Origin: a virus
Direction: 5' to 3' (one strand)
IMG/VR virus record: IMGVR_UViG_3300025832_000005
Span: 1 to 64,000 of that record
Length of the DNA stretch: 64,000 nt
In this document: positions 8,993 to 61,806 of the stretch, in pieces
How the letters are laid out: each line of letters opens with the position of its first letter
Position numbering within the stretch: position 1 is the first letter of the stretch
The notes under the pieces: model-generated
Databases searched by the model: none
What the model was told of the DNA's origin: nothing
What the model saw: the letters and a program-made list of their open reading frames with translations, nothing else
Position numbers and translations under genes: made by a program

Positions 8993-11227
8993 TTAACTTG
9001 TTTGAATCACAATCTCATCATCAACAATCTCTAGGTGTACTTTAGTAATGTCGTTACCAAATAGTAATGTTTTAGCAAGTGGCTTTTTAATCTTTTCATT
9101 AATTAAACGTGCCATTGGTCTTGCTCCCATACTAGGAGTAAATCCATTATCAGTTAACCAATCAAGAACTTGTGTACTATGCGACATTGCCACACCACGT
9201 GGTGTTAACATATCACGCAACTCTTTAATAAACTTATTAGTAACTTGTTTCATTAATGTCTTATCTAGTTTATTAAACTGTACAACTGCGTCTAAGCGGT
9301 TACGAAACTCTGGACTAAAGAAACGTTTAACTGCTTCATTACTTGCTGTTGTATTATCGTTATCACCAAACCCAATTGTATTACGTTCAGCATCTCTAGC
9401 ACCTAAGTTACTGGTTAAGATAACAATCGCATTACGTGCGCTAACACTTTTGCCTTCACTATTTGTAATCATACCATTGTCCATAAGTTGTAGCAATACA
9501 TTACTTACATCTGGGTGTGCCTTTTCAATCTCATCTAGCAACAAGATACAGTTTGGATTTTCTTCTAGTTTGTTTACCAGCAACCCACTGCCTTGTCCAC
9601 CTTCGCCATAACCTACGTATCCTGGAGGCGCACCAATTAGTTTAGCAACTGTATGACGCTCTTGGTATTCACTCATATCAAAACGTACAAGTGGCATACT
9701 CATAGCATCACTAAGTTGTTTTGCTGTTTCTGTTTTACCTACACCTGTTGGTCCTGTAAACAAGTAACTGCCAACTGGTTTGTTTGGATCTTTAAGTCCT
9801 GCTTTAGCAATGTAGATACTATCTGCTAGTCTTGTAATAGCTTCGTCTTGTCCAAATACTTTTGATGTAACAATACGTTCAATATCAACTGGCTTTTCAG
9901 TTTTGTACTCACTGTCTTTTGTTAGCACTAATTGATCTACTGGAATGCGTGTTAGTTTAGCAACCTCATAACGGATGTCATCAAGCTCTAGTACACTCTT
10001 ACGATCTTCTATTGGTAGTAATGCTTGTCTTGCCGCCGCCGCATCCAGAGCATCAAATGCTTTATCTGGTAACTGACGGTTGTGCCAGTATTGGTGTGTT
10101 AAGTCAACAGCACCATCCAATGCCTTTTGGTCGTATGCTAGTTCATGATATAATTCATATGCTGGAATAGCAGCACGTACAATACGTTTAGCATCCCCCA
10201 CTGTGGGCTCTGGAATATCTACTTTATAAAAACGACGATTAAGTGCTTTGTCTTTTTCAAAGGTTTCACGATACTCGTCATATGTTGTACTACCAATACA
10301 ACGTAGTTTGCCTTTTTGTAATGCTGGCTTTAGTAAGTTAGCAACGTCCATTGCTCCTTGTCCAGCACTGCCTGCTCCCATAATCATATGAATCTCATCA
10401 ATAAACAAGATAGCATCGTCACGGCGCTCTAGTACATCCAAAACTTCTTTAAGACGTTCTTCAAAGTCACCTCTAAACTTAGTACCTGCTAGTAGTGAAC
10501 CAATATCCAAACTATAGATAGTATTGTCTTTAATAACATCCGGAACACGATCTTCATTAATTAGATGTGCTAGTCCTTCAGCAATAGCAGTTTTACCAAC
10601 ACCACTTTCGCCTACTAGGATAACGTTGTTCTTTTTACGTCTAGCAATAGTTTGTACAAGTTGCTCAAGCTCAGTTTCTCGACCAATCATAGGATCAATT
10701 TCACCATTATTAGCTAACATATTTAGATTGTCACAAAACTTTTCTAGTATACGTTCTTGCTTTAATGGTTTATCACGAGTATTAGCTTCTGCTTCTTCAG
10801 TTGCTTCATTAGTTAGATATGAGATTAAGTCTTCTCTAGTAATGTCAAGTTGATTTAGCAATACAACAGATGGCGATTGCTCTTCTGTTAAGATACTAAT
10901 AAGCAAGTCACGTGGGTCAAGTTTCTGTCTACCATTAAACATTGCTTGTGTAAACGCACGATTAAACACACGCTCTAGCATAACTGTCTTTTGTGGTTGA
11001 AACTCTTCCTTGTCAATACTATCAACTTCAGTTTCTAGATAAGTGATAACTAGATCTCTAGTTACCTTTGGATCTTTGTCAATATCATAGAAAATATCCT
11101 GTACTTCTTCTGTTTCCAGCAATATAGCTAGTAGATGTTCTAGTGTAACATATTCATGTTTGTACCCTCGAGTCAATTGAAATAGGCGTTCTACTAGTGC
11201 TTCTATTTTTGGGTCGTTTTGTGACAT
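8993..11227 (-). CDS. clpA: ClpA-type AAA+ unfoldase
   Basis: A 744-residue, near full-length ClpA. In order: Clp-N repeats (about 1-145), the first AAA module with Walker A GESGVGKT (near 206) and Walker B ILFIDEIH, sensor block GSTTYDEYRETFEKD, then the second AAA module with GPTGVGKT, LLLDEIEKAH and TSNLGA. The loop RNTIGFGDNDN carries an IGF tripeptide, the ClpP-docking signature, so it should feed ClpP rather than act only as a chaperone. ClpP (36646) and ClpS (61018) are also encoded here. A TTGACA-N17-TATATT promoter lies just outside the gene start. Confidence 0.95.
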   Translation of the reverse strand: MSQNDPKIEALVERLFQLTRGYKHEYVTLEHLLAILLETEEVQDIFYDIDKDPKVTRDLVITYLETEVDSIDKEEFQPQKTVMLERVFNRAFTQAMFNGRQKLDPRDLLISILTEEQSPSVVLLNQLDITREDLISYLTNEATEEAEANTRDKPLKQERILEKFCDNLNMLANNGEIDPMIGRETELEQLVQTIARRKKNNVILVGESGVGKTAIAEGLAHLINEDRVPDVIKDNTIYSLDIGSLLAGTKFRGDFEERLKEVLDVLERRDDAILFIDEIHMIMGAGSAGQGAMDVANLLKPALQKGKLRCIGSTTYDEYRETFEKDKALNRRFYKVDIPEPTVGDAKRIVRAAIPAYELYHELAYDQKALDGAVDLTHQYWHNRQLPDKAFDALDAAAARQALLPIEDRKSVLELDDIRYEVAKLTRIPVDQLVLTKDSEYKTEKPVDIERIVTSKVFGQDEAITRLADSIYIAKAGLKDPNKPVGSYLFTGPTGVGKTETAKQLSDAMSMPLVRFDMSEYQERHTVAKLIGAPPGYVGYGEGGQGSGLLVNKLEENPNCILLLDEIEKAHPDVSNVLLQLMDNGMITNSEGKSVSARNAIVILTSNLGARDAERNTIGFGDNDNTTASNEAVKRFFSPEFRNRLDAVVQFNKLDKTLMKQVTNKFIKELRDMLTPRGVAMSHSTQVLDWLTDNGFTPSMGARPMARLINEKIKKPLAKTLLFGNDITKVHLEIVDDEIVIQTS

Positions 11228-11255: not shown

Positions 11256-11284
11256 AATATAGTGTATCTTACGTCAGATGTCAA
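11256..11284 (-). promoter_or_regulatory. Sigma70-type promoter for clpA
   Basis: TTGACA (11284-11279), 17-base spacer, TATATT (11261-11256) on the minus strand, 29 bases before ATG 11227. Confidence 0.8.
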
Positions 11285-30924: not shown

Positions 30925-31273
30925 TAAATTGTGCTAAGTTAGGCGGAGACCAATTTGACGGTTTTAACACCTTCCCATCAGCACGTTTGATCACTTTGTT
31001 TGTAGTTGGATCAATCTTAGCAAAGTTTGTATCCATTACTTCTTTCCAGGCTGCTTCTCCGTCCCAACCTGCGGCACGTACTGCGCCCATAGTAACAACT
31101 AAGATGTCAATAAGTGCGTCAAGTTGTTCGACTTTGTCGTTGTCTTGGATAGCTTCTTCTAGCTCGTCTGTTTCCTCACGGATTAGATCGAGATACATTT
31201 TGTAGTTTGCTTCACTTGGTGGTTGGTCACATGCTGTACCAAATGTTTCGATGTCTTTGAATGGATTTGTCAT
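30917..31273 (-). CDS. mazG: MazG-type nucleotide pyrophosphohydrolase
   Basis: A 118-residue all-alpha NTP-PPase. Motifs: [13 protein letters not shown] (ExxE) and [15 protein letters not shown] (the downstream metal-binding Asp), then a phage-specific C-terminus ([22 protein letters not shown]). Similar single-domain MazG proteins are widespread in marine T4-like phages and may hydrolyse dGTP/dCTP or modulate alarmones. The 3' end is the point where a GIY-YIG gene is lodged. It overlaps the aldolase gene by 4 bases. Confidence 0.87.
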
Positions 31274-32076
31274 TTATTTGCCTCTGTTATCATTTTAATG
31301 TTCTGCTTAATCTTAGCATTAAACTCAGCGTCTGTCAAGTGATAGTTTAAACCTTCACTCAATGCTCTCGAAAAACTAGCAGTAACGTCTGCGTTAGCGC
31401 CTAACCTACGACATGCTTCTTGTGTAGCATATCCGCCACTTAGGAACACAACACGTTCTACATTAGGAAATACTGTAAGGTTGTGATACAAGTTGGGTAC
31501 TTCTGGTGGTGTTAGTTTAAGAATACATTTACCTGGAAACTCATCCAGAAACTCTTGTAAGTGATACATAAGAGCTGATTCAACTTTAGCTTTAACAGGA
31601 TTGTCGATAGGTACTTCGGGCTCAATGATTGGTACAAGCCCATGCTCCCAAATAGTACGAGCAAGTGTAAACTGTTGTTTGAGTACAGGATGTACCATAC
31701 TTCCCCCTTTAACAATGCTACGCATCTTTGTACCATAAATCTTAGGACCAATACCGTTTGTAGCCCACTCTAACATTTGTTTTACTGGAAACTGTTTAAG
31801 CATACCACTTTCTTCACAGCCACTGTCAATCTTTAGGAACGTGTCAATACCTTTTTCATCCAGGACATTTACCATGCCACGAGTAACTGTGTCTTGGTAT
31901 AGTATTGCCGCCCAAATGTTTTTATCGTTGAAGTCAGGTGAGTTAACCATACGCATACGCATTTCGTGTACACGTTCCATTTTGTTATCTTCTGTGTACT
32001 CACGTCCATAACGTTCTAGTACACCACCTGTTGAACCACCACTGTGATCCATTGCCGCTATAAATCTATGATCCAT
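31270..32076 (-). CDS. fba: Class I fructose-bisphosphate aldolase
   Basis: A 268-residue class I aldolase, close to the Staphylococcus-type FBA. Features: FIAAMDHSGGSTGGVLE at the N-terminus, GTKMRSIV, IIEPEVPI (substrate Glu) and CILKLTPPEVPN with the Schiff-base Lys, then FLSGGYATQEACRRLGAN (phosphate loop). It would interconvert fructose-1,6-bisphosphate and triose phosphates, pushing carbon towards the pentose phosphate route that feeds PRPP synthase, also encoded here. Host SAR11 glycolysis is variable; a compensating role is speculation. Confidence 0.9.
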   Translation of the reverse strand: MDHRFIAAMDHSGGSTGGVLERYGREYTEDNKMERVHEMRMRMVNSPDFNDKNIWAAILYQDTVTRGMVNVLDEKGIDTFLKIDSGCEESGMLKQFPVKQMLEWATNGIGPKIYGTKMRSIVKGGSMVHPVLKQQFTLARTIWEHGLVPIIEPEVPIDNPVKAKVESALMYHLQEFLDEFPGKCILKLTPPEVPNLYHNLTVFPNVERVVFLSGGYATQEACRRLGANADVTASFSRALSEGLNYHLTDAEFNAKIKQNIKMITEANK

Positions 32077-33342: not shown

Positions 33343-33673
33343 AAGATTCGCCTGTACTACGAAAGAAGTTTTCACTCCAAAACGCTTTGTCGTCAATCCA
33401 AATATCATAGTTTTCTTTTTCGCCAACACTTAGTTCATGGTGCTTTGCACCCCAGTTTATTAATTGATCTTTAGTTAAATCATAATAATCAATTTTGCTC
33501 ACACAACCTCGTGCTGTCATATATTTAATAGTATGTCCTGCATCATACAATGCGTTTACTTTTGCAATACGATCCAGCATAGGAATATGTTTAGCGTAGT
33601 CTTTCTTTCCACCAGTGCCAGGTATAATCACTTCTTTACAGATGGTGCCGTCGATATCAATTACATATTTCAT
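33335..33673 (-). CDS. Small HAD-family phosphatase
   Basis: A 112-residue HAD hydrolase with motif I DIDGTICK (nucleophile Asp6), helical segment [15 protein letters not shown] (motif II, Thr/Ser) and [11 protein letters not shown] (motif IV acidic pair). The cap is minimal, typical of nucleotide or polynucleotide phosphatases in phages. It overlaps prs by 4 bases, suggesting a role in nucleotide metabolism. Confidence 0.78.
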
Positions 33674-34614
33674 TGGAATAAACTACTCACACTTTCTTCA
33701 TTTGTAATACGGCGCATTGCTTCGCCAAATAATGGTGCTAAACTTACTTGTCTAACTTTTGTACTTTTGCCATCATAAGGAATACTATCACTGATAACTA
33801 ATTCTTCTAGTTTACTAGCTTCAATCTTTTTACTAGCACCATTGCTTAGTACACCATGTGTAATGTATGCTCTAACACTTAGTGCGCCAGCATCCAAGAT
33901 AGCTTCTGCGGCTTTACATAGTGTGCCTCCACTATCAACAATATCATCTACTAGGATAGCATGTTTACCTTTAACATCACCAATCAGTGCCATTACTTCA
34001 CTAACACCTGCTCGAGGTCTACGTTTGTCTACAATAGCAATATCGCCATGGAACATATCAGCAAACTTACGAGCTCTTACAGCACCGCCTGCGTCTGGTG
34101 AAACAAATACTGTCTCTACAGTATTGATGTCACTGCCGTCTTTGTAAAATTGTTTTTTAATGTCTTTAGCAAACACTACACGGCTTGTTAAATCGTCCAC
34201 TGGAATATCAAAAAAGCCTTGAATCTGTCCTGCGTGTAAATCCATTGTGAGTACACGATCTGCACCTGCTGTAGTTAGTAAGTCAGCAACTAGTTTGGCA
34301 GTAATGGGTGTTCTTGAAGCACTTTTACGATCTTGGCGTGCGTACCCAAAGTAAGGGATAACTGCCGTAATACGACTAGCACTACTACGCTTGGCAGTAT
34401 CAATCATTATCAGCATTTCCATTAAACTATCGTTAACTGGTGTACAAGTGCTATTCACTAAAAAAACATCCGCACCACGAATGTTCTCATGTACTTCTAC
34501 ACATATTTCTCCATCACTAAACCGATTTAGTTCTGCTGGAACTAACTCAGTGAAGCAATGATCAGCAACCGCTTTAGCAAAAGCAGTATTGCTACTTCCT
34601 GTAATTATTTTCAT
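33670..34614 (-). CDS. prs: Ribose-phosphate pyrophosphokinase (PRPP synthase)
   Basis: A 314-residue class I PRPP synthase. Start ATG 34614 follows GAGG by six bases. Motifs in order: [26 protein letters not shown]-like [23 protein letters not shown] (ATP binding), [16 protein letters not shown] (flexible loop/catalytic), [14 protein letters not shown] and the PRPP loop [12 protein letters not shown]. It makes PRPP from ribose-5-phosphate and ATP for nucleotide synthesis and for the encoded phosphoribosyltransferases. Length is normal. prs is known in some phages. Confidence 0.94.
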
Positions 34615-34628
34615 ATTTTCCTCGTTTA

Positions 34629-34934
34629 TTAAACTGCGAACGATTCGCCACAGCCGCAACTAGCAGTTGCGTTAGGGTTAACAACAGTAAGGTAACTGCC
34701 GCCTAATTCTTGTACATAGTCAACTGTACATCCAAATAAAAACATCTCAGCCATTACATCAATAACTAAAATATCGTCAATTAAATTGCCCGATACTTCA
34801 TCACTGAAGTTCCATTCATATCGAAAGCCACTACAACCGCCGCCTTTAACATCTAGTGTAACATAGCGTTTGTTTTCGTTTTCAATCATCTTATTAAGAT
34901 ATTGTTTTGCTGAGTCTGATATAGTTAATTTCAT
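34629..34934 (-). CDS. A-type Fe-S carrier (IscA/SufA/ErpA family)
   Basis: A 101-residue A-type carrier; start ATG 34934 chosen over a longer frame. The conserved cysteines are in [11 protein letters not shown] (about 35) and, near the C-terminus, ASCGCGESF (two Cys), exactly the family pattern. It transfers Fe-S clusters to apoproteins. Directly next to a 7Fe ferredoxin and 1 kb from a MIP18-like protein, it forms an Fe-S supply module. A-type carriers occur in several marine phages. Confidence 0.92.
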
Positions 34935-36645: not shown

Positions 36646-37233
36646 TTATCTTTGTTCAATTACACGATCAGCTAGACCGTAGTCAACTGCTTCTTGTGCT
36701 GTTAAAAATGTATCACGATCCATGTCACGTTCAAAATCTTCATATGTCTTACCACTAGTATTATGCTTAACATACAGATTTGTCAACTGTTTTTTCATGT
36801 GTGTAATCTCTTTGTACTGGATCTCAATATCACTTTGCATGCCTCTGGCACCACCGCTTGGTTGATGGATCATTGTACGACTATTTGGTAATACCATACG
36901 CTTACCAGTTGCTCCAGCCTGTGCTAGGAAACTTCCCATACTACATGCTTGACCGTTTACAACTGTTACTACGTCTGGTTTAATGTACTGCATTGTATCA
37001 TAAATGCTCATGCCACTAGTAATAACACCACCAGGGCTGTTAATATACAATGTAATGTCAGCATCTGGATTTTCACTTTCCAGAAACAATAACTGACTTA
37101 CAATTAAATTAGCCATATAGTCTTCTACTTGACCATTAAGCATTACTACACGGTCTTTTAACAAGCGACTGTAGATATCATAACTACGTTCACCTGCACT
37201 TGTTTTATCAATTACGATGGGCACTAATGCCAT
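36646..37233 (-). CDS. clpP: ClpP protease
   Basis: A 195-residue ClpP serine protease, full length. Catalytic triad: Ser in [12 protein letters not shown] (family GQAASMGA), His in TMIHQPSGG, Asp in [31 protein letters not shown] is the oxyanion strand region. The N-terminal axial loop is short. It would assemble as a tetradecamer and partner the encoded ClpA (IGF loop) and host ClpX. Cyanophages and other phages carry clpP, mostly as prohead-type proteases, but this one has the housekeeping sequence. Confidence 0.95.
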
Positions 37234-42044: not shown

Positions 42045-44087
42045 TTACTTGGTTTGGGCAAAAAACACGCCATTCCAATCTTTAGGTAAGTCTTGTGTCT
42101 TTTGGAATTCACAACGCTCAATCCACATATCATAGTAGCCAGCCATTTGTCCGTCAAAGTGATCATGTAACATCTTACACTTGTCTATTGCGTCATCAAA
42201 TCTTTGCGCCAGATAGTCTTCATACATATCTTGGTGTTTCTTTTGTGCTTTACGCCAAGCTGGACGCTTCTGATCTAATACTGTCCATATACCAACACCA
42301 ACACTCTTGCCTTTAACTGCTAAGTCATCTATCTTTAAGTAAAAGAAGTCTGACTTAGTTGTTTGGTATGTAGCATCGCCTACTAGTAGTAAACATCCGT
42401 ACTCTTTACATTTTGATTCAATACGTGCGGCAGTACTTACTGCGTCTCCCAAAACATCATAACTGTGTCTAGCTGTTGATCCCATCTCACCAATATAACC
42501 AAGTCCTGTATTGATACCTGCGCCCATGCCTACTGCTGGTCTACCTTGTGGAATAATAACTTCTTCATTAAATTTATCCACTGCCGCTAACATATCTAAT
42601 CCACATTGTACTGCGGTTCTTGGATGGTGACGATCATCTATAGGCGCATTGTGTATGTGCATACTAGCATCGCCTATATACTTAATAATCATTCCATCAC
42701 TGTCTAATACAGGCTGTGTAATACTATCCATGTAGCCATTCATTATTTTAGTTAGGCCTTTTACATCGTCACCAAAACTCTCACCTAGTGGAGTAAAGCC
42801 ACGCAAGTCACTAAACACGATACTAACTTCTTTCTTTACACCATCTTTAATGAGTGCTGGATTTTCTTGTAGTAGTTTAACAACTGTAGGTGATGCGTAT
42901 CCGCCAAACTGTTTCTTAATTTCTTGTTTTTGTAGGAATTCATCTACAAATTTAACTATATACCTAGTCATGCCCACTAGTATTAAAAAGGCACTAGATG
43001 TAGCGCCATCAATCAAATAGTTATAGTTATTAAAACTATATATGCTATAAAATATTGAACCACCTACTGCGACTACAAATACTATAATGCCAGCATAAGT
43101 CCAACGTGCTAGTACAATAACAAAAAGTCCTACTAATAAGAAGCCTAACATTTCAGCATCAAAAGCCCAAGCAGGTCGTTCAATATTACTTTTGTTAAAC
43201 ACTGTGCCAAGTATAGTGGCATGTATTTCGTGTGGGTATATACTGCCCGCCGCTGTTGCTACTGGCTGTGAAACACCTGCCGCTGTTGGGCCAACAAATA
43301 CTATGCCGCCATCAAAGTCGTCTGGTAAGTTTGTTGTGCTATAACTTTTATTCTTTTGACTCCAGTCAATCCAAACACGCCCAAGTCCATCTGTTTGTAT
43401 AATACCAAACTGTGGTATGCGTAGTTTGTCAACACCAAATTCATTTAACTTAATCTGAAAACTAGGATCTCCAGCAATAACTCGTAATACTTCCATTGTA
43501 ACACTTGGATAAAGTGTGCCTTGGCTTTCTATAACCATTGGCATACGTCTTGTTACACCATCAGCTTCTGGGAATGTATCTACGATGCCACTGCCAACTG
43601 ATGAAAATTCTATGTCTGGTACGTTTGCTATAACACCTTCACGGCTGGGTATAAGGTACATAAAGTCACTATTAACAATAGTAGCACCAGGATTAATTGC
43701 TTCGTTTTTATTCTCATCTGCGCCCAGCATGTTTAGGATAACTGGTAACTGTTGCATTGTTAATGCTAAATCTTGATCCTCTCCTGCTCGATCAGTTTCA
43801 GCCATTAGTACATTAAACACAACTAAGCCAGCACCACGGTCATATAAGTCTATAATTAACTCACTATAGTCTCCACGTGGCCAGGGCCATTGTCCTTTTT
43901 CTTCTAAACTTGCTTCGTCTATGTTAACAGTGTATATGTTATTTTCAATTGGCTCTTGATTTACTATTAGTTGGTCAAAGTATCTCAACCTTAAACTATC
44001 TAGAAATACTGGGTTACTACTATACACCCAAGTAAGAAGTAGTAGTACAAGCACACTCCATATTGGAGAGAATAATATCTTACGCAT
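42045..44087 (-). CDS. CHASE2-domain class III adenylate/guanylate cyclase
   Basis: A 680-residue membrane cyclase, long for a phage. Residues about 6-24 are a first membrane helix; about 30-315 is a CHASE2 sensor (INNYTVNIDEASLEEKGQWPWPR type: NIYTVNIDEASLEEKGQWPW); three more helices span about 318-380; the cyclase domain is about 420-610, with FSDLRGFTPLGES (metal Asp 1), KYIGDASMHIHNAP (metal Asp 2 and purine Lys) and GAGINTGLGYIGEMGS then DVLGDAVSTAARIE. It would make cAMP (or cGMP) in response to a periplasmic cue. Phage cyclases of this kind are rare. Confidence 0.88.
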   Translation of the reverse strand: MRKILFSPIWSVLVLLLLTWVYSSNPVFLDSLRLRYFDQLIVNQEPIENNIYTVNIDEASLEEKGQWPWPRGDYSELIIDLYDRGAGLVVFNVLMAETDRAGEDQDLALTMQQLPVILNMLGADENKNEAINPGATIVNSDFMYLIPSREGVIANVPDIEFSSVGSGIVDTFPEADGVTRRMPMVIESQGTLYPSVTMEVLRVIAGDPSFQIKLNEFGVDKLRIPQFGIIQTDGLGRVWIDWSQKNKSYSTTNLPDDFDGGIVFVGPTAAGVSQPVATAAGSIYPHEIHATILGTVFNKSNIERPAWAFDAEMLGFLLVGLFVIVLARWTYAGIIVFVVAVGGSIFYSIYSFNNYNYLIDGATSSAFLILVGMTRYIVKFVDEFLQKQEIKKQFGGYASPTVVKLLQENPALIKDGVKKEVSIVFSDLRGFTPLGESFGDDVKGLTKIMNGYMDSITQPVLDSDGMIIKYIGDASMHIHNAPIDDRHHPRTAVQCGLDMLAAVDKFNEEVIIPQGRPAVGMGAGINTGLGYIGEMGSTARHSYDVLGDAVSTAARIESKCKEYGCLLLVGDATYQTTKSDFFYLKIDDLAVKGKSVGVGIWTVLDQKRPAWRKAQKKHQDMYEDYLAQRFDDAIDKCKMLHDHFDGQMAGYYDMWIERCEFQKTQDLPKDWNGVFFAQTK

Positions 44088-45518: not shown

Positions 45519-46373
45519 TTAATTTTGTGTTACGCTAATAGCGCATCCTATTGTGTTTGTACAGATCCCTGTTAAACTGTATGATTGATTAGTTGTGCTG
45601 TCTTGTGTTGTATTTACAGTATACGCCCCACCACCATTGGTGAGGTCTAAAGTCATACTATGAGATCCAGTACCTTCCTGTGAACTCGTCACATCATGGT
45701 CGTTACCCGTTAGTACCAGTCTACCAAAGTTATATTGTCCACCTTGATATCCATCTATTGTATTATCATTTCCAACAACCTTCGCCTGAGCTTGATTGTA
45801 TTGTGATCCATCTTGTACAAGTGTAATGTTATTTCTATCACCAGTTATTGGTGTGTTGCCATACCCATGTACTATATGATTGTTACCATCTTGGTCTACA
45901 GTAATAGTATTATCATCACCGTTTGCTTCTACTTTTGCAAAGTTGTAATTACCATCTTGATCAACAATAATAGTTTGATTATAATCACCACCATTGCCTA
46001 GTTCGGCATATGCATAGTTATAGTTGCCATTTTGTTCAATATCAATAACACAATTATTACCATGGCAATCTAAACTTGCTGAGTTGTTATCGCCTATTTG
46101 CGACACATTGTTTATTCCATTACCAGAACTCATCCACGCCCACACTTGATTATTGTCACCTGTTTGCGCATATGTAGTGCTTGTGTTGTTACCACTTACT
46201 TGAGCTTTACCGCCCGAACCAGTTATCTTATTGTTAGCGCCATCTTGAGTGATAGTCATATCTATATTATCACCAACTTGTCTAATCCATATTTCATTTG
46301 CCCAACTAGTAGTTGTTTTGATTGATAACAATACTGTTAGAGGAACCAACACCCACTTTAAAACCGTATTCAT
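45519..46373 (-). CDS. Curlin-repeat protein (CsgA/CsgB-like), 284 aa
   Basis: Start ATG 46373 follows GGAGG by 7-8 bases. Signal peptide about 1-24 (LLSIKTTTSWA), then an array of Gln/Asn repeats of curlin type (Q-x-G-x-x-N): QDGANN, QTGDNN, QIGDNN, QNGNYN, QDGNYN, QDGNNH, QDGSQY, QGGQYN. Two Cys pairs are scattered. Curlins are secreted through CsgG and form amyloid fibres. Adjacent CsgG, CsgF and a second curlin-like protein support this. Whether the phage protein forms fibres, and when, is unknown. Confidence 0.85.
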   Translation of the reverse strand: MNTVLKWVLVPLTVLLSIKTTTSWANEIWIRQVGDNIDMTITQDGANNKITGSGGKAQVSGNNTSTTYAQTGDNNQVWAWMSSGNGINNVSQIGDNNSASLDCHGNNCVIDIEQNGNYNYAYAELGNGGDYNQTIIVDQDGNYNFAKVEANGDDNTITVDQDGNNHIVHGYGNTPITGDRNNITLVQDGSQYNQAQAKVVGNDNTIDGYQGGQYNFGRLVLTGNDHDVTSSQEGTGSHSMTLDLTNGGGAYTVNTTQDSTTNQSYSLTGICTNTIGCAISVTQN

Positions 46374-47436
46374 AAAACCCTCCTTGAACAAAGTCTACAT
46401 TGTAGCTGTGACTTTGGCTTAAATTTAATTGAAAGAAATGTTGATCTCCTTCTTTGCGACTTACTACAAAATAAGGATATTCCTCATCATAAAATATATT
46501 TGTATCTGGATCTAATCCAAAAAACTTATCCTGAAAAAACTCTACATTTTGTGTTCCTAGACTATCAAACCATTTTGATAGTATTTCAGCAAGTTGTTTT
46601 TCCAATTGATCTATAAACTCTGAATTTAGGTAAGTTGTGTTATCTAAATCAGTTACCCAAATATTTTTAATACCATCAACTAATGGATCACTGTCTAGTT
46701 CGTCAAACTCTAAAAAGTCAATGTCTAATATATCAGTAGGTGGTTTTTGTTTTATTATCTCTTCTGTGTAAGGTGATACTTTACGTACAATTAACATTGC
46801 TGTAAGCATATTTTCTGGTAAGTCTAGTACAACTCCTGGCTTTGGAACAGCACCACTGTGTGAAACTATAGTAGTTTGGAATGCTTGATTCATAATAACC
46901 ATTCCCACATCGCTCTCAACACTAATCTCACCAGTTACACATAATCCACTTTCATCACAACTGGGCAATAGTGTTATCATACTGCCGCCTATCTCATCTA
47001 CAATCATCATAAAGTCTGTACCACGCACTGTAACTTTAGCACTTGGCGTTCTTATGTTTACTCGTTGTCTTGAATTCTTTGCTATTTGTCCACTAGCATA
47101 ACGTACTGCGCCTAGTGTTGCTTTCATACTAAGAGCACCTGTTCCACTAGCTGGATCGTATATAAACTCATCAATAGTCATACGACTATTTTCAGTAACA
47201 TCTACTCTAGTATCGTCTACAAAGTCTAAACGCAATTTACCTTTACCAGTAGCAATATTATCGTTCATTTGTAAGCCAAGACCTACTTCGCCAGTGTATG
47301 CTTCTTTATCACGTTTAATTGTACTTGTGCCAGAAGATTCAGCAACCGCTCCAATAGGAGTTGCCCTAGCTATACTTACGTATGCTAGAGCAACAAATAT
47401 TATACATATAAGTTTAATCGGATTGTGTAATATCAA
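46306..47436 (-). CDS. Exported FecR-domain protein, 376 aa
   Basis: A 376-residue exported protein: signal peptide 1-25, then a FecR domain (about 28-170: IGAVAESSGTSTIKRDKEAYT, GKLRLDFVDDTRVDVTENSRM, SAKVTVRGTDF) as in periplasmic FecR-like proteins, and an unrecognised C-terminal half. The start is TTG 47436; its last 68 bases overlap the curlin gene start, so expression is coupled. FecR-like domains occur with adhesins in bacteria. I recall such a protein in pelagimyophage curli clusters. Confidence 0.78.
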   Translation of the reverse strand: MILHNPIKLICIIFVALAYVSIARATPIGAVAESSGTSTIKRDKEAYTGEVGLGLQMNDNIATGKGKLRLDFVDDTRVDVTENSRMTIDEFIYDPASGTGALSMKATLGAVRYASGQIAKNSRQRVNIRTPSAKVTVRGTDFMMIVDEIGGSMITLLPSCDESGLCVTGEISVESDVGMVIMNQAFQTTIVSHSGAVPKPGVVLDLPENMLTAMLIVRKVSPYTEEIIKQKPPTDILDIDFLEFDELDSDPLVDGIKNIWVTDLDNTTYLNSEFIDQLEKQLAEILSKWFDSLGTQNVEFFQDKFFGLDPDTNIFYDEEYPYFVVSRKEGDQHFFQLNLSQSHSYNVDFVQGGFYEYGFKVGVGSSNSIVINQNNY

Positions 47437-52505: not shown

Positions 52506-53113
52506 GTACTTTGTGGCATAGTAAACAATGCTCTTACGTCATGTGACTCATTGCCTTCAATAGGCTTACGAGCAAATGCGCACCACTTGTATGCAAACAT
52601 TGTTTGATTGTCTGTACAGAATTCTCTAAAACTTGTACCTGTAGTATATACATCATCCACAACCATCCAAGGATGATCGCCTGGTGTTACATATTTTTCC
52701 ATAGCGTGTGCTAATGCCATTCCGCCACGTGGAATACCAACTACCTTACTAAAAGGTTCTGTTTGATAATCCATAATCATACGTGCTAATCCGTCCCACC
52801 ACTCTGGGCGTATAGCATCGCACTCAATCTTCCATGCTAGTTTATTTCCTGCGTGACTTGTAAAGTCACCTACTTCAAATAAGTCTGCGCCTGTTCTAAA
52901 TACCATTAGTTGCTTCTCCAATTCCATAATATATTCTGCAGCTTTCCAAGCATAGTGATCTGTACATTTTGTTTTCCATTCTTCACCTGCTTGGTTTTTT
53001 AATTTTACTACCCATTCAGTTTGTTCTACTCTTGCTTTAATTTCTGGATAGTCTTTATCAACAACATCATGTTCGTTTTCTTCTATCTCAAATCCATGTG
53101 TATTGTGTTGCAT
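52502..53113 (-). CDS. Phosphoribosyltransferase-fold protein
   Basis: A 203-residue protein. Residues about 105-165 are type I PRTase: FSKVVGIPRGGMALAHAM then WMVVDDVYTTGTSF (PRPP loop with both Asp). The N-terminal half has charged helices and SHAGNKLAWKIECDAI and is unlike standard PRTases, though EWWDGLARMIMDY near the joint is the orotate-type layout. Substrate unknown; pyrimidine or base salvage is possible. It overlaps apt by one base. Confidence 0.75.
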   Translation of the reverse strand: MQHNTHGFEIEENEHDVVDKDYPEIKARVEQTEWVVKLKNQAGEEWKTKCTDHYAWKAAEYIMELEKQLMVFRTGADLFEVGDFTSHAGNKLAWKIECDAIRPEWWDGLARMIMDYQTEPFSKVVGIPRGGMALAHAMEKYVTPGDHPWMVVDDVYTTGTSFREFCTDNQTMFAYKWCAFARKPIEGNESHDVRALFTMPQST

Positions 53114-53628
53114 TAGTATTCAACACCTGTGTAAAATGGTATACCACGAGCTTTTACTAAGTCGCTTCCACCTAATTTAGGTAGGTCAATAACAGTTGCT
53201 ACTGCCACAGTAAAAGCATTTAATTCTTGTACTAAATCCAATACTGCGCACATTGTGCCACCAGTTGCCATTAAGTCATCAATAATAAGGCAACGGTCTC
53301 CTGCTTCAATACTATCTGCTTGTATTTGTAATTTATTTGTTCCGTATTCTAAATCGTATTCTTTTTCAGCTATCTTACCAGGAAGTTTACCAGGTTTCCG
53401 TGCTAGTACTAGTGGGCCTCTTGTACGATGAGCAAACACACTAGCAAATATAAATCCACGAGCATCAATACCAATAATTTTATCTACAGGACAATATTTT
53501 AGTAAGTTACTGTATATAAAGTTATTTGCTTCTGCGTAACCATCTTGTGATGCGCATAAACTTGCTACATCCTTATAATCAATTCCATCAATTGGAAAGT
53601 TTTGGTAACTTGTTATGTATTGTTTCAT
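53113..53628 (-). CDS. apt: Adenine phosphoribosyltransferase
   Basis: A 171-residue Apt. Motifs: FPIDGIDYKDVASL, IIGIDARGFIFASVFAHRTRGPLVLARK (adenine loop RGF) and CLIIDDLMATGGTM (PRPP loop). It converts adenine plus PRPP to AMP. With prs, the MTA/SAH nucleosidase and GMP reductase in the same window it builds a purine salvage set. Overlaps the neighbouring PRTase by one base. Confidence 0.93.
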   Translation of the reverse strand: MKQYITSYQNFPIDGIDYKDVASLCASQDGYAEANNFIYSNLLKYCPVDKIIGIDARGFIFASVFAHRTRGPLVLARKPGKLPGKIAEKEYDLEYGTNKLQIQADSIEAGDRCLIIDDLMATGGTMCAVLDLVQELNAFTVAVATVIDLPKLGGSDLVKARGIPFYTGVEY

Positions 53629-53629
53629 T

Positions 53630-54490
53630 TTAATAACTCTGTGCTAGACGCCACATCAAATATTCTTTTGACTCAATGGGCTCATATTTTGATTGTTCGT
53701 CACGTAAGTTTTGTACTATTGTGCCGGGTGTTGGGTCTACAAAGTGTGGCATCGAATATCTTTGTTGATGTATATGACTGTTAACTACACGATGTTTAGT
53801 ACTTTTAAAATAATCGTTAGTCCAACGCTGTAGTAAGTCACCAATGTTAACAACTACTCCATCATCCGCATACGGGACCGGGTGCCACTCTTCTTTGAGA
53901 TCTTGGACTTGAAGCCCAGGAACATCATTAATCTGCCATAGTAATGTAATAGTGCCGTAGTCACTGTGTTCTCCTATACGCATTTGTTTATCTTGTACTG
54001 GTCCAGTATATGCTGGATAGTGAATAACTCTTGTTGTGTTAAATGGTTGTAAATGTGAATCTACTAGTGTAGTTCCACTATCTAAAATAGTATCAAACTT
54101 AGATAATATTTTCATAGTAAGTTTATCTGCAATGTCAATACTTTGTAAGGCTGTTGCTTTAAACTCTGGTAATTCTGTAGGCCAAAGGTCTTCTGGCATA
54201 CGTGTATTGTTGTAGTTAAAACTTTCTTTGATATCTTTTGGTGCTGTAGGATCAACGTTTTCGTCGCCTACCATGCTATAACCCAAGTTAGTATCTGCGT
54301 TATAAGGATAACTTTGTTTTTTATCCATTGGCAGTTCAAAGAATGCTTTCATTTGTTCTTGCCAAGACTTGATGTCTTGTTGATGTGTTTCAGTTAACGC
54401 ATTTGTAAACACTGCGAAGCCTACTGTTGTGTAGGCTTCGTCAATGCGATCTAAAGCGTCTGATGCTTGTAAATCAATTACTGGAATCAT
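53630..54490 (-). CDS. Isopenicillin-N-synthase-like 2OG-Fe(II) dioxygenase
   Basis: A 286-residue enzyme of the IPNS/2OG-oxygenase family. N-terminal DIOX_N-type helix; Fe(II) ligands in GEHSDYGTITLLWQ (HxD) and later KSTKHRVVNS (His); 2-oxoglutarate site near RYSMPHFVDPTPG (RxS). Such enzymes hydroxylate or desaturate small molecules. In phages 2OG enzymes may modify bases or metabolites. Between Apt and the BMP protein, a purine-related substrate is an attractive guess, not shown. Confidence 0.85.
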   Translation of the reverse strand: MIPVIDLQASDALDRIDEAYTTVGFAVFTNALTETHQQDIKSWQEQMKAFFELPMDKKQSYPYNADTNLGYSMVGDENVDPTAPKDIKESFNYNNTRMPEDLWPTELPEFKATALQSIDIADKLTMKILSKFDTILDSGTTLVDSHLQPFNTTRVIHYPAYTGPVQDKQMRIGEHSDYGTITLLWQINDVPGLQVQDLKEEWHPVPYADDGVVVNIGDLLQRWTNDYFKSTKHRVVNSHIHQQRYSMPHFVDPTPGTIVQNLRDEQSKYEPIESKEYLMWRLAQSY

Positions 54491-55569
54491 TAACCAGGTA
54501 CCTTTGATGTAATGCCTTCGACATAGAACATCATAGTGTCTAGTTGCTGTCTAGTTGCTACTTCGCCTTCTTTCAGGAACACTGTTCCGTCTTGCTTGTT
54601 AATTGGACCTGTAAATCCAAATAACTCACCTGCGCTAATAGCATCTTTTACACGCTGTGCTTCTGCTTGTACGTCAGCTGGCATGTTAGCAAACGGTGCC
54701 ATTTGTACAGCGTCTTCGTTCATGTGTCCAAAGTAATCGCCTGTTTCCCATGTACCGTCTAGTACTTGTCCTACTTTCTTAATATAGTAAGGACCCCAAT
54801 TGTCAATAGTTGCTGTCAATTGTGCGTTAGGAGCAAACTTCATTTGATCACTTGCTTGTCCAAATCCAAGTACGCCTGCTTGTTCTGCTGATTGTAGTGG
54901 AGCAGGTGAGTCAGTATGCTGTGCTACAATGTCACAACCTTGGTCAATCAATGCTGTTGCCGCATCTTTTTCTTTACCTGGATCATACCATGTGTAAACC
55001 CACGCAATTGATAGTTCTACATCTGGATTGTACTTACGTGCACCCAAGAAGAACGTGTTAATCTCACGCATAACTTCTGGAATTGGGAATGAAGCAATAT
55101 AACAAATTTTGTTTGTTTTTGTCATCATACCTGCTACAACACCTTGTACGTGTCTTGCTTGGTATAGTTTCAAACCATAGTTAGCAACGTTGTCAGATGA
55201 TTTATAACCTGTAGCATGTTCAAACTTTACGTTTGGAAACTTCTTTGCTACGTTCATTATTGGATCCATATATCCAAATGATGTCGCAAAAATAATGTCT
55301 GCGCCCTGTAGTGCCATTTGTGTCATTACACGTTCAGCGTCAGCACCTTCTGCTACACTTTCAACAAATCGTGTTGTTACTCTGTCGCCGTATGCTTCTT
55401 CTACTTGCTGACGACCAATATCGTGACGGTATGTCCATCCGTGGTCACCAGTTGGTCCGACGTAAATAAATCCGACCGTGATGTTATCCTTAGGTGCATC
55501 TGCTTGTGCTGACACAGCTAAAGACCCCAACATTAATAATGTTGCGGAAAATAGTTTTAATAATTTCAT
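54490..55569 (-). CDS. BMP/PnrA-family periplasmic binding protein
   Basis: A 359-residue solute-binding protein: Sec signal 1-23 (LSATLL..SLAVSAQA) and no lipobox Cys. The BMP family mark VGFIYVGPTGDHGWTYRHD comes first, then ERVMTQMALQGADIIFATSFGYMD, a central AAT-type domain and DQGCDIVAQHTD, as in PnrA/BmpA/TmpC receptors that bind purine nucleosides for ABC import. No permease is encoded nearby, so it would feed a host transporter. It fits the purine salvage theme. Read-through from the tmRNA promoter is possible. Confidence 0.88.
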   Translation of the reverse strand: MKLLKLFSATLLMLGSLAVSAQADAPKDNITVGFIYVGPTGDHGWTYRHDIGRQQVEEAYGDRVTTRFVESVAEGADAERVMTQMALQGADIIFATSFGYMDPIMNVAKKFPNVKFEHATGYKSSDNVANYGLKLYQARHVQGVVAGMMTKTNKICYIASFPIPEVMREINTFFLGARKYNPDVELSIAWVYTWYDPGKEKDAATALIDQGCDIVAQHTDSPAPLQSAEQAGVLGFGQASDQMKFAPNAQLTATIDNWGPYYIKKVGQVLDGTWETGDYFGHMNEDAVQMAPFANMPADVQAEAQRVKDAISAGELFGFTGPINKQDGTVFLKEGEVATRQQLDTMMFYVEGITSKVPG

Positions 55570-55584
55570 TAATTAGGTTTCCTT

Positions 55585-55966
55585 TTGTGTTGGCTGTACT
55601 TTAACCTATGTTTCAGCCGTCATAGTGTAACGCTTCTGTTGCTAGGTGCGTTACAAACCCCCACTTACCTAATTAGGCAGCTAAAGCCATTTCTGGCGCT
55701 CTATTTGCGTTTGCATTTAGAAAGTTTATTCGCGGTAACGGCGCTTATATCCCGGTAACTCCACTCATCTATCCTACCTGTCGATCCTATTTCGACCCCA
55801 TCAAAAACACACTAGCACTCTTATTCTTTACCCTATTTCTAGGTCCTCTATATCGAGTTATCATCTCGGGAAAGAGAGGTTATATTTCAAACCTAATGTG
55901 TTTATGGTGGAGTCGCCGGGTACCGCCCCCGGGTCCAGTATAGTCGTCAAATCACTTCAACGTTAC
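55585..55966 (-). ncRNA. ssrA: tmRNA, circularly permuted two-piece type
   Basis: On the minus strand the acceptor piece comes first, ending CGACTCCACCA (CCA at 55907-55905) after a T-arm GGACCCGGGGGCGGTACCCGG. After a 105-base loop the coding piece starts at 55799 with GGGGTCG, which pairs with CGACTCC as a 7-bp acceptor stem. The tag frame starts at GCA 55714 and reads ANANRAPEMALAA, stop 55675-55673. A GTAACGC/GCGTTAC stem and an H-type pseudoknot (CTATG/CATAG with GGCTG/CAGCC) follow near 55592-55654. This permuted order is the alphaproteobacterial form. tmRNA rescues stalled ribosomes and tags products for Clp proteolysis; clpA, clpS and clpP are all in this window. Confidence 0.93.
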
Positions 55967-55972
55967 AGTCTA

Positions 55973-56001
55973 TTTATATACTAAACACAAGAGGATGTCA
56001 A
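55973..56001 (-). promoter_or_regulatory. Sigma70-type promoter for tmRNA
   Basis: TTGACA (56001-55996), 17-base spacer, TATAAA (55978-55973) on the minus strand. The start would fall near 55966, at the acceptor piece. Confidence 0.87.
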
Positions 56002-56045
56002 GCCTTATTATAGAAAAGACTAAATAGACTGGATAGAAAAAACAC

Positions 56046-56077
56046 ACTCAAATTTTTTTGAGCTAATTTTTTTTAGG
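56046..56077 (+). promoter_or_regulatory. Attenuator-like hairpin before the synthetase-like gene
   Basis: Plus-strand CTCAAATTTTTTTGAG folds into a short stem and is followed by CTAATTTTTTTT, a terminator-like layout 26 bases before ATG 56103. The stem is AT-rich and weak, so its activity is uncertain. Confidence 0.4.
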
Positions 56078-56102
56078 CTGAATTTCAGAAAAGGAAAAAA
56101 AG

Positions 56103-56945
56103 ATGACGCAACTCATAAACCCACAAAAATTTACAGACACAGTTGGCCTTTTAAGGTCATTTTTTTTGGACAAAGGCTTCTTAGAAGTACATACCCAAAA
56201 TAGACTAAGCATACTTGCCGCATGTGAAGATCCGTTCAATGTAGCAACATACAATTACGCAGACCAGGTTTGGCCATTACCGCAAACAGGCCAGATGTGG
56301 TTAGAACATGAATTATTAAGCAAGCCCGATAGTAAGGGCTTTTTTTGTGTGTCAACGTCCTATAGACAGGAACCAAACGCTATACCAGGCAGACACGACA
56401 TTATCTTCCCAATGTTTGAGTTTGAGATGCCGGGCGATGTAGATGATCTTAAAAAGATGGAAATTGAACTATGTGATTACTTGGGCTTTGACCCACTAAC
56501 AGAAAAAACATACAGCGACTGGCAAAAACACTTTGGTGTAAGTCAATCAACTGAAATGGACGCACAACACGAATTAGCAATGGATATGAACTTTGGTAGT
56601 TGTTTAATTACAGACTTCCCAGAACTAACATCACCTTTCTGGAACATGGCACGTAACGATGATGGCAATACTGCTAAGAAGATGGATGTTATCTTAGGTG
56701 GTATGGAAACTATTGGATCAGCAGAACGTAGTTGTGATGTTGATATGATGCGTGATACATTCCACAGTATTGTAGACGGAGACTATGCTGAGCTGCTGTT
56801 TAAATTGTTTGGTAAAGAACGTGTAGAAGCAGAACTAGAAGAGTTCCTCAAGTTTGACTTCTTCCAAAGAGTAGGTGGTGGCATTGGCATGACACGTATG
56901 ATTGCCGCACTGGATAAACTACAAAGTTTAGACAAAGCCGCCTAA
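56103..56945 (+). CDS. Class II aminoacyl-tRNA-synthetase-like protein
   Basis: A 280-residue protein with a class IIb synthetase core (Asp/Asn/Lys or AsnA type). Motif 1: FFLDKGFLEVHTQNRLS; motif 2: STSYRQEPNAIPGRHDIIFPMFEFEM with the fRxE Arg; the DVILGGMETIGSAER block like DLVLNGxEIGGGSxR; motif 3: GGGIGMTRMIA. No anticodon-binding OB domain is present, so it resembles truncated or AsnA/AspRS-like paralogues. It lies 8 bases before a long-variable-arm tRNA on the same strand, so both are probably one transcript. Which amino acid or molecule it activates cannot be read here. Confidence 0.82.
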   Translation: MTQLINPQKFTDTVGLLRSFFLDKGFLEVHTQNRLSILAACEDPFNVATYNYADQVWPLPQTGQMWLEHELLSKPDSKGFFCVSTSYRQEPNAIPGRHDIIFPMFEFEMPGDVDDLKKMEIELCDYLGFDPLTEKTYSDWQKHFGVSQSTEMDAQHELAMDMNFGSCLITDFPELTSPFWNMARNDDGNTAKKMDVILGGMETIGSAERSCDVDMMRDTFHSIVDGDYAELLFKLFGKERVEAELEEFLKFDFFQRVGGGIGMTRMIAALDKLQSLDKAA

Positions 56946-56952
56946 AAATTGA

Positions 56953-57052
56953 TCTGGGGTGGTGAAAGTGGTAGACACGCACGACTGTTTATCGTGTGGT
57001 AGATGTTCGCAAAATATTTATCGTGTAGGTTCGAATCCTACCCCCAGAGCCA
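56953..57052 (+). tRNA. tRNA with long variable arm, anticodon read as GUU
   Basis: A 100-base tRNA. Acceptor TCTGGGG/CCCCAGA with discriminator G and encoded CCA (57050-57052); D-arm 3-bp stem with GG in the loop; anticodon stem CACGA/TCGTG (56980-56996) with loop CTGTTTA, giving anticodon GTT (56987-56989), which is an asparagine anticodon; T-arm GTAGG TTCGAAT CCTAC. A 28-base variable arm (56997-57024) folds as a 7-bp stem. Class II arms belong to Leu, Ser or bacterial Tyr tRNAs, and the D-arm also looks Leu-like; base 37 is U where A is expected. The GUU plus long arm mix is unusual. Confidence 0.85.
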
Positions 57053-57053
57053 A

Positions 57054-57272
57054 TTACCACTTAGTGGCTAATGTCTTTTTAAGTTGTTTTTGACTTCTAA
57101 CTGCGCTTAGACAACTTAGTATTCTATTTTGTTTTCCATGTGGGAGTTGGTAATGGTTTTTTGATTTCCAAGTTTTTGCTTTTTCAGCTTCTTTACTAAA
57201 CTCAGTTAGTAATAAATCTTCCATAAATGTTAGTTCATCTTCAGTTAGCTCTGTTATTCTATTGGCTACCAT
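57054..57272 (-). CDS. Hypothetical protein, 72 aa
   Basis: Start ATG 57272 has GGGAG seven bases upstream and overlaps the preceding stop region. The 72-residue basic protein (MVANRITELTEDELTFMEDLL...) is helical with a Lys-rich end. It finishes two bases from the convergent tRNA gene. Function unknown. Confidence 0.6.
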   Translation of the reverse strand: MVANRITELTEDELTFMEDLLLTEFSKEAEKAKTWKSKNHYQLPHGKQNRILSCLSAVRSQKQLKKTLATKW

Positions 57273-57459
57273 ATTGCTGCTCCCACGCTTGGGTAAAGCC
57301 TTCTTCATGAAGGTAGTTCTCGTTGTTATTCCAAAGTCTTTGAAAATATGAATGATAAATTCTTTCAACTGTGGAGTCTGATTCGGACGAGTCAATAAGT
57401 TGACCTTTAATCATCCAGTTTAGTCTATTAGCTTCTTTACGCAATTCTGGTGAACACAT
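57259..57459 (-). CDS. Hypothetical protein, 66 aa
   Basis: A 66-residue protein (MCSPELRKEANRLNWMIKGQ..., FQRLWNNNENYLHEEGF) with AAGGAG six bases before ATG 57459. Helical and charged. It overlaps the next gene by 14 bases. Function unknown. Confidence 0.65.
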   Translation of the reverse strand: MCSPELRKEANRLNWMIKGQLIDSSESDSTVERIYHSYFQRLWNNNENYLHEEGFTQAWEQQYGSQ

Positions 57460-57517
57460 ATGTATCTCCTTGCCACATCGTATTTACACATTTGTGTTGA
57501 CGCTGGCGCTAACATAA

Positions 57518-58072
57518 TTACATATTTGGTATTTTTAAAATATTATTAGTCAATTGTGTGGCACTTAGTTCAATACTGCGTTCCCACTGATTACTTGGCA
57601 TTGTTTGCCACATTAACTGATCAGTATAGTCTATTGACATCCAAGTACCAATGCCATTTGTACGGCTGCCAAGTATTTCGCTTTCTAGTTGTCCTGCTCC
57701 CCATGAACTTCTACCAACAATTACTCTCCAGTATTCAGGAAATTGTCCAATGTTCATTACGTTGACAATACTCTTGTCTTTTGTGATGCTTAGTGTATCA
57801 TTAAGTTTTCTTGTACTAGGTAATTTTAAATCATTACTGTGTATAACAACAGCATTGTTTACGTCTACTGGACCACCAAAGTATAATGGTATGTCACGAG
57901 TAAGATTCATACCTTTGCGTAAACGTTGTGTTATTTTATCATCTAATTGTTTATTAACTATCCAACCAGACGCTCCATCGCCAGTGTGCTTATTCATAAG
58001 AACAACACTGCGATTAAATGTTCCAGTATTTACAGCTGGAATGCTGATTAAAAAATCACCTGATAAGTTCAT
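57518..58072 (-). CDS. UPF0301/AlgH-like protein
   Basis: A 184-residue protein of the UPF0301 (AlgH/YqgE) family: GDFLISIPAVNTGTFNRSVVLMNKHTGDGASGWIVNK, IPLYFGGPVD, and YWRVIVGRSSWGAGQLESEI match family blocks. Function is unclear; AlgH was linked to transcriptional control of alginate genes and may bind RNA or ATP-related ligands. Homologues appear in T4-like marine phages. Overlaps the 72-aa gene by 4 bases. Confidence 0.83.
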   Translation of the reverse strand: MNLSGDFLISIPAVNTGTFNRSVVLMNKHTGDGASGWIVNKQLDDKITQRLRKGMNLTRDIPLYFGGPVDVNNAVVIHSNDLKLPSTRKLNDTLSITKDKSIVNVMNIGQFPEYWRVIVGRSSWGAGQLESEILGSRTNGIGTWMSIDYTDQLMWQTMPSNQWERSIELSATQLTNNILKIPNM

Positions 58073-59867: not shown

Positions 59868-61016
59868 CTATAACTTGGTGGTAGTAGACTCATACGTTTT
59901 ATTAAACTGGTTGTTTACACGAATAAATGTTGTACATTTACTCAGTTGCTTTAGTGTATTGGCACCAACGTATGTACATGTACTGCGAACGCCGCCCAGA
60001 ATGTTTTGCACAGTTCTAGCAATTTCACCACGATAAGGCACAAGCACTTCACGTCCTTCACTTGAACGATACTCTTTAAGTCCGCCAAAGTGTTTAGTGT
60101 TTGCCGCATCACTGCTCATTCCGTAGAACTTTATGAATTGTTTTTCTTCTACTTTATGTACACAATTGGCCAAATGCTCGCCAACTTGATATTCTAGTTC
60201 ACTAGTTTCATAGTATCGGGTAATTACGTCACCACCACCTTCATCGTGTCCAGCAAGCATACCGCCTAGCATTACAAAGTCGGCCCCGCCCGCAAAAGCC
60301 TTAGCAATATCGCCAGGACAGGTACACCCACCGTCAGCAATAATATGACCACCAAGGCCATGAGCGGCATCAGCGCACTCAATAACGGCACTGAGCTGTG
60401 GATATCCCACACCAGTTTGAATACGAGTGGTACATACACTACCTGGTCCAATACCAACTTTAACTATGTCTGCTCCATTTAGTATTAACTCTTGCGTTTG
60501 ATCTGCCGTAACCACATTACCAGCAATAATTACTACTTTAGGAAAGCGGAATTTAAATTCTCCCACAAACTCCACAAAACGTTGACTGTATCCGTTTGCC
60601 ACATCAATACAAACGTATTTTAAATTTTCTTTACATACTGTATAAACTTTTTCAAATTTGTTTAAGTCACGATCCTGAATACCAATACTCATAGCAACAT
60701 AGTCACTACGCTCAGGTAAATCAGATGTAAAGTATTTGATTAAATCTTGTTCACTATATGTTTTAACTAGACATGTAAAGATGTTGCCTTCAGCAAGTTT
60801 GTCTGCCATTTCAAATGTACCAACACCATCCATGTTGCTTGCCATAATTGGAACACCTTTCCAATCATATTCTCCAGACATAATGTCTTGTTTGTTATAA
60901 TTACGGAATGTAAATTCACGTTCTAAGTTTACTTCTTTGCGTGAGCCTAATGTGCTACGCTTTGGACGAATCAAGACATCGCTGTAGTCCAACAGTACTT
61001 CATTTTCAATTCTCAT
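59868..61016 (-). CDS. guaC: GMP reductase (IMPDH/GMPR family)
   Basis: A 382-residue enzyme of the IMPDH/GMPR family without CBS domains, as in GMP reductases. Motifs: [44 protein letters not shown], the catalytic loop [21 protein letters not shown] with active Cys, [16 protein letters not shown], and [13 protein letters not shown] near the C-terminus. GMPR turns GMP into IMP with NADPH, rebalancing purines. Slightly longer than E. coli GuaC at the C-terminus. Fits the purine salvage set. Confidence 0.92.
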
Positions 61017-61371: not shown

Positions 61372-61806
61372 TTATACTGCTGAAATTTCTATTTTTCTGG
61401 GTTTCTTTTCTTCTGGAATGATACGTTCAAGCTCTACATATAGCATGCCGTTCTCCATCCTCGCACCCTGTACCACTACATCATCAGCGAGTGTAAAACT
61501 GCGCTTAAATTTACGTTGCGCAATTCCACGATGTACCCAGCGTACTGATTCATTTGGTTCAACTTCAACCGGGTCATGTGTAATAGTTAATTCACCATCT
61601 GCGACTTCAATATCTATATCATCCATACGTACACCAGCTAATGCCATCTCAATTTGGAAACGGTTTTTCTCTTGTACAATATTGTATGGTGGGTACCCAG
61701 CATTTTGTGGATGTTCAGTGTACTTAAACATGTCGTTAAACATTCGTTCTAAGCCAACACTGTGAGGGGTAAGTTTATTCAAGTCAATCGTTGTTAATCT
61801 ATTCAT
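61372..61806 (-). CDS. hsp20: Small heat-shock protein (Hsp20/IbpA family)
   Basis: A 144-residue Hsp20. The alpha-crystallin domain (about 35-130) contains RFQIEMALAGVRMDDIDIEVADGELTI, VRWVHRGIAQRKFKRSFTLADDV and RMENGMLYVELERIIPEEKKPRKI, with the I-x-I-type tail EISAV. It holds unfolded proteins for DnaK or ClpB. Marine T4-like phages often carry Hsp20. Its leader is long (see 61807-62028). Confidence 0.94.
   Translation of the reverse strand: MNRLTTIDLNKLTPHSVGLERMFNDMFKYTEHPQNAGYPPYNIVQEKNRFQIEMALAGVRMDDIDIEVADGELTITHDPVEVEPNESVRWVHRGIAQRKFKRSFTLADDVVVQGARMENGMLYVELERIIPEEKKPRKIEISAV

Follow-up and report, generated by a model that had tools for sequence, protein, structure and literature searches.

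A circularly permuted alpha-type tmRNA gene with a PEM-type tag in a virus record that also encodes ClpA-like and ClpP proteins

The minus strand at 56001-55582 of the window, the 64,000-nucleotide stretch of IMG/VR virus record IMGVR_UViG_3300025832_000005 analyzed here, contains a complete circularly permuted alpha-type tmRNA (two-piece ssrA) gene. We probably see in it a functional phage ssrA of an old virus-only lineage that would use host SmpB, rescue stalled ribosomes, and tag their products for host and phage Clp proteins. Membership was defined as a score above the curated threshold of the Rfam covariance models RF01849 (alpha_tmRNA) and RF04321 (tmRNA_permuted), and the gene passed both. 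The alpha_tmRNA model was covered end to end at 56026-55624 (minus strand) with 127 bits (E 2.9e-34, gathering score 50), and the newer tmRNA_permuted model matched 55966-55673 (minus strand) with 110.2 bits against a threshold of 47. ARAGORN independently called a permuted tmRNA at 55582-55997 (minus strand) with the tag ANANRAPEMALAA. The gene is real and well above chance. A sequence-only reading had proposed a permuted tmRNA that is encoded by the phage and driven by its own promoter at 55585-56001, with a failed alpha_tmRNA search as evidence against it. The two models, ARAGORN, and a TTGACA-17-TATAAA promoter bear the proposal out, and they supply the strand that it had not assigned. From 5′ to 3′ the gene consists of a promoter, an acceptor piece with encoded CCA, an intervening segment, a tag-bearing coding piece, and an H-type pseudoknot:

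55971-56001, minus strand: promoter, with TTGACA at 56001-55996, a 17-nt spacer, and TATAAATA at 55978-55971 (TATAAA 55978-55973)
55905-55966, minus strand: tmRNA acceptor piece, with the T arm at 55932-55916, the acceptor 3′ strand CGACTCC at 55915-55909, A73 at 55908, and CCA at 55907-55905 (RF04321 and RF01849 alignments, covariation)
55800-55904, minus strand: intervening segment of 105 nt that separates the acceptor and coding pieces and is expected to be removed in processing
55624-55799, minus strand: tmRNA coding piece, with the acceptor 5′ strand GGGGTCG at 55799-55793 (G3 at 55797), the tag frame, and the 3′ pseudoknot
55673-55714, minus strand: tag reading frame ANANRAPEMALAA plus stop (ARAGORN)
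55627-55654, minus strand: H-type pseudoknot, with the stem GTAACGC/GCGTTAC (55654-55648/55633-55627) and the loop ACCTAGCAACAGAA
54490-55569, minus strand: PnrA/BMP-like substrate-binding protein gene directly downstream of the tmRNA (Pfam PF02608, 162.5 bits)

The placement of the acceptor piece before the coding piece and the encoded CCA, both described in the sequence-only reading, agreed with the Rfam models, ARAGORN, and the sequence. The acceptor resembles that of tRNA-Ala, with a 7-bp stem containing G3-U70, A73, and CCA. The stem had been said to close perfectly; its seven pairs stand, but pair 3 is G3-U70 rather than a Watson-Crick pair. This alanine identity element was invariant in 30/30 aligned sequences. 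Pairing in the acceptor and T stems reached 99.2% across these 30 sequences, with a covariation score of 0.429 versus 0.113 when shuffled and ≤0.049 with one strand slid. The intervening segment was variable in length and aligned poorly among relatives. An ALAA tag end followed by a pseudoknot had also been anticipated correctly: ANANRAPEMALAA is a short frame with an -AA end and then a stop, and the pseudoknot stem has 7/7 pairs. That stem also covaried among 38 distinct viral pairs, where a mean of 5.16 of 7 positions were paired versus 3.46 with partners shuffled (maximum 4.08 in 1000).

The predicted transcription start (~55966) is where the tmRNA_permuted match begins, and TTGACA-17-TATAAATA was kept upstream of the tmRNA in most of 30 aligned relatives. 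Eight TTGACA-N16-18-TATAWW promoters occurred in the window versus 0.49 expected from Markov simulations, all of them intergenic and on the minus strand. Since TATAAATA was not enriched in the window (6 versus 8.6 expected), we interpreted it as a -10 box of the sigma-70 type and rejected a T4-type late promoter. Riboswitch control of the tmRNA was rejected as well, as an Rfam search of 54400-57600 (E up to 5) found no riboswitch.

Several other genes in the window stood out. A purine-related set at 53113-55569, 59868-61016, and 33670-34659 (all minus strand) comprised the PnrA/BMP-like binding protein, adenine phosphoribosyltransferase, GMP reductase, and PRPP synthetase. A stand-alone class-II synthetase core of 280 aa, AsnRS/AspRS-like, lies at 56103-56945 (plus strand), followed at 56953-57052 (plus strand) by a tRNA of class-II shape whose variable arm is long. 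ARAGORN read this tRNA as Asp(atc), but alignment of the anticodon loop (C[TC]GTT[TA]A) gave GTT (Asn) in 11/12 aligned loci (L262 did not align). The same synthetase/tRNA pair is annotated as tRNA ligase and tRNA-Asn in Prochlorococcus phage P-SSM7, and the two genes here are possibly a private aaRS-tRNA pair. The minus strand also contained genes for a CHASE2 plus adenylate/guanylate cyclase protein (42045-44087), a FecR-domain protein (46306-47436), and a curlin-repeat protein (45519-46391). Further host-like genes on that strand (2203-3267, 57518-58072, 61372-61806, and 31270-32076) encode a UvsE-type UV endonuclease, an AlgH-like protein, HSP20, and a class I aldolase-like protein.

We compared the gene with bacterial ssrA by DNA search and phylogeny. 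Among the matches listed from 385 alphaproteobacterial genomes, only a T-arm/acceptor core of 31-56 nt was similar, except in one phage-gene-carrying contig. None of these sampled genomes held a near-identical ssrA; an identical host copy was the other outcome that the sequence-only reading had set against its proposal. Alphaproteobacterial ssrA (Caulobacter type, RF01849) shares with the phage gene the architecture, the T-arm/acceptor core, an ANDN-like tag start, and the -AA end, but the best host genes listed scored 249-313 bits versus 70-132 for phage genes, and the host genes occupied a separate tree branch. Trees were built from 213 columns of 102 host (alphaproteobacterial) and 95 viral tmRNAs with tag codons removed, the hosts coming from one class with a bias to higher scores and the search being quick rather than careful; 12/39 extra host loci were not called by ARAGORN. 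The best host/viral split from FastTree left two viral-collection sequences (L018 and L058) on the host side with a support of 0.787, and a quick IQ-TREE search left three there with an SH-aLRT of 99. In the IQ-TREE tree, the tmRNAs of isolate phages of Rhodobacter, Ruegeria, and OM43 were nearest to other viral sequences. The separation of nearly all viral from host tmRNAs makes descent from an old virus-only lineage most likely, as part of the best explanation of the gene. The tmRNAs of the IMG/VR contigs L018 (5083-5414) and L058 (947-1280), which grouped with bacterial ones, have host-like tags and may be bacterial or prophage-flank sequence. An alphaproteobacterial host, which the sequence-only reading had drawn from the permuted form, is not established, because the gene falls in a viral lineage apart from the sampled host tmRNAs and because phage Melnitz, whose host OM43 lies outside the alphaproteobacteria, has an alpha-like tmRNA (PMC9004378).

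The tag belongs to a family, AN.N..PEM..AA plus stop, with at least 120 matching stretches among viral contigs and none in sampled bacteria. Searched against a genome set of 84,980 species, the pattern, which fixes the tag length and the GCA resume codon so that close bacterial variants would be missed, matched two contigs only. Both were phage contigs, and a bacterial origin of the PEM tag was therefore rejected: L282 (PBPT01000016.1; 335,231 bases) has a T4-type portal gene, and L283 (PALK01000009.1; 29,883 bases) has phage ribonucleotide reductase, endolysin, and endonuclease families. Binning had assigned these two contigs to MAGs, one of Neomarinimicrobiota and one of Rickettsiales. PEM occurred in 14/57 called viral tmRNA genes in a sample fetched regardless of tag. 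The comparison with host tags that the sequence-only reading had suggested found PEM-type tags in 51 of the 95 viral sequences of the tree set, many of which were gathered by tag pattern, versus 0/105 host tags. Host tags such as ANDNEMALAA have the same EMALAA end as the phage tag. PEM needs 20 changes on the tree, which rejects a single gain and makes it a recurrent variant rather than a clade marker.

The whole record, of which the window is the first 64,000 nucleotides, spans 133 kb, and in it the tmRNA occurs together with a full-length ClpA-like unfoldase and ClpP:

8993-11227, minus strand: ClpA-like double AAA+ unfoldase with an N domain, two P-loops, and an IGF loop; one of the eight TTGACA/TATAWW promoters lies upstream at 11284, 57 nt ahead of the gene
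36646-37233, minus strand: ClpP, full length, with Ser-His-Asp motifs present

The ClpA-like protein aligned over its full length to E. coli ClpA (1ksf, 684 bits), with IGF where E. coli has IGL. It has the structural features of ClpA, namely the N domain, two AAA+ modules, and the ClpP-docking IGL/IGF loop, and falls under the NCBIfam ClpA equivalog cut-off (TIGR02639, 855.7 bits versus 993.15). ClpP scored 301.7 bits to NF001368 (cut-off 249) and 265.6 bits to its PDB match, and was below the stricter TIGR00493 (287.9 versus 308.6). ClpX was absent from the record, which may be a fragment. Counting ClpP above 200 bits, ClpA above 740, and ClpX above 450 as full length, 16/19 tmRNA-positive virus records, this one included, had clpA, clpX, or clpP (ClpP 11, ClpA 11, ClpX 8), which is not an unbiased rate because records were picked for tmRNA, BMP, or AsnRS matches and for length, and the three tmRNA-negative records are too small a number to serve as control. 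No Clp gene accompanies the tmRNA in phages Melnitz, RcXuper, DSS3P8, DSS3_MAL1, and Cp1R7A-A1, and Atu_ph07, PA5oct, and RaK2 are Clp-positive but lack an alpha tmRNA. The Clp link may thus be a matter of lineage and not of function. A standard one-piece tmRNA in Clp-bearing jumbo phages was rejected, with no match above the cut-off. We likewise rejected a phage-encoded SmpB, since none was found in any of 32 records, this one included; host SmpB must thus be borrowed.

Two-piece tmRNAs of phages are already published. Unique tmRNA structures number 133, from 402 of 18,146 phage genomes; 53 are two-piece, of which 50 come from aquatic phages, and a role in maintaining hijacked machinery or recycling host protein has been suggested (PMC9004378). 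A close described case, in Methylophilales phage Melnitz, is likewise an alpha-type permuted ssrA of a marine myophage with a promoter ahead (PMC9004378); it scored 106.7 bits to the same Rfam model and has the TATAAATA box in common with the present gene. Melnitz differs in its tag, ANDNYVPVDYALAA, in the lack of Clp genes in its record, and in a described glutamine riboswitch (PMC9004378) that has no counterpart at the present locus. Roseophages DSS3P8 and DSS3_MAL1 and Rhodobacter phage RcXuper also have alpha-type permuted tmRNAs with related tags such as ANTNAAPMEMAIAA, but these adjoin tRNA genes and the phages have no Clp genes. The Sinorhizobium jumbo phage Phosso (PV764938) was found to have an alpha tmRNA, ClpA, ClpP, and ClpX, and its ClpA and ClpP were the best isolate matches to those described here, although ARAGORN did not call its tag. 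Another Sinorhizobium jumbo phage, AP-J-162, has one tmRNA and six Clp ORFs in a 471.5-kb genome, which the excerpted description does not link to each other (PMC11242549); both differ from the present marine phage in having soil rhizobium hosts. Atu_ph07 encodes seven Clp proteins and no tmRNA (PMC6102473, PMC11242549). A phage two-piece tmRNA as such is known; the virus-only lineage, the PEM tag family, and ClpA and ClpP in the same record go beyond it, and in the open-licence literature we found no paper linking phage tmRNA to phage Clp proteins or describing the PEM tag.

From the tmRNA structure, promoter, and partner genes present in the sequence, we infer each functional step, including processing, tagging, and protease use. 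The sigma-70-type promoter would make one precursor, from which host tRNA-processing enzymes would excise the 105-nt segment, as in the family, leaving acceptor RNA and coding RNA joined by the acceptor stem. Host AlaRS would charge the phage tmRNA via G3-U70, and host SmpB and EF-Tu would bring it to ribosomes that have stalled on cleaved or non-stop mRNAs, expected to be common in an infected cell. The ribosome would then move to the phage frame, append ANANRAPEMALAA, and be released, and the -ALAA end would direct the fragment to ClpXP/ClpAP. Co-occurrence and intact motifs suggest that phage ClpA and ClpP may take part. The phage would likely benefit by gaining free ribosomes, as well as recycled amino acids, for the synthesis of its own proteins, and the phage control of ribosome rescue envisaged in the sequence-only reading is plausible.

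Other explanations of the gene are less probable. The phage RNA could compete with host tmRNA for SmpB or ribosomes as a decoy that blocks host rescue, much as expression of the CDS-less tmRNA of mycobacteriophage DS6A in E. coli inhibits the endogenous tmRNA (PMC11915505). The tag frame, its stop, and the terminal -AA, for which a decoy would have no use, are intact across the sampled viral sequences, and we hold this reading unlikely. It is equally improbable that the tmRNA is mainly a processed leader coupling RNA processing to the expression of a downstream purine-salvage operon (PnrA/BMP, 2OG oxygenase, and APT). The BMP gene follows within about 80 nt of the tmRNA in 26 loci, and a terminator scan called no intrinsic terminator between the two here, so they are possibly co-transcribed; yet elsewhere in the set the tmRNA mostly has different neighbors, and conservation sits in the tmRNA core, not the spacer.

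The most remote of these is that a host ssrA was captured recently or by accident and has no phage function. Host ssrA is a known prophage integration site, and ssrA fragments occur in prophages (PMC9004378). Against capture stand the lack of a near-identical gene in the sampled alphaproteobacteria, the separate viral lineage on both trees, the conserved promoter and covarying stems, and the spread of the tmRNA through viral contigs. We reject this reading as largely refuted. A functional phage ssrA of the viral lineage remains our preferred explanation, and within it we offer more tentatively a private tag-and-destroy line, in which the virus-only degron AN.N..PEM..AA might be recognized by phage ClpA, ClpX, or ClpP either without host adaptors and proteases or better than by them. 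Were this so, proteolysis of stalled products would be redirected to the phage.

Phage tmRNAs are usually viewed as incidental tRNA-like cargo. A lineage confined to viruses, with a tag motif of its own and often with phage Clp genes beside it, offers a testable case in which phages may take over ribosome rescue and protein turnover jointly. A PEMALAA-ended peptide detected in a metaproteome from the environment would be a sign of phage-directed tagging in nature.
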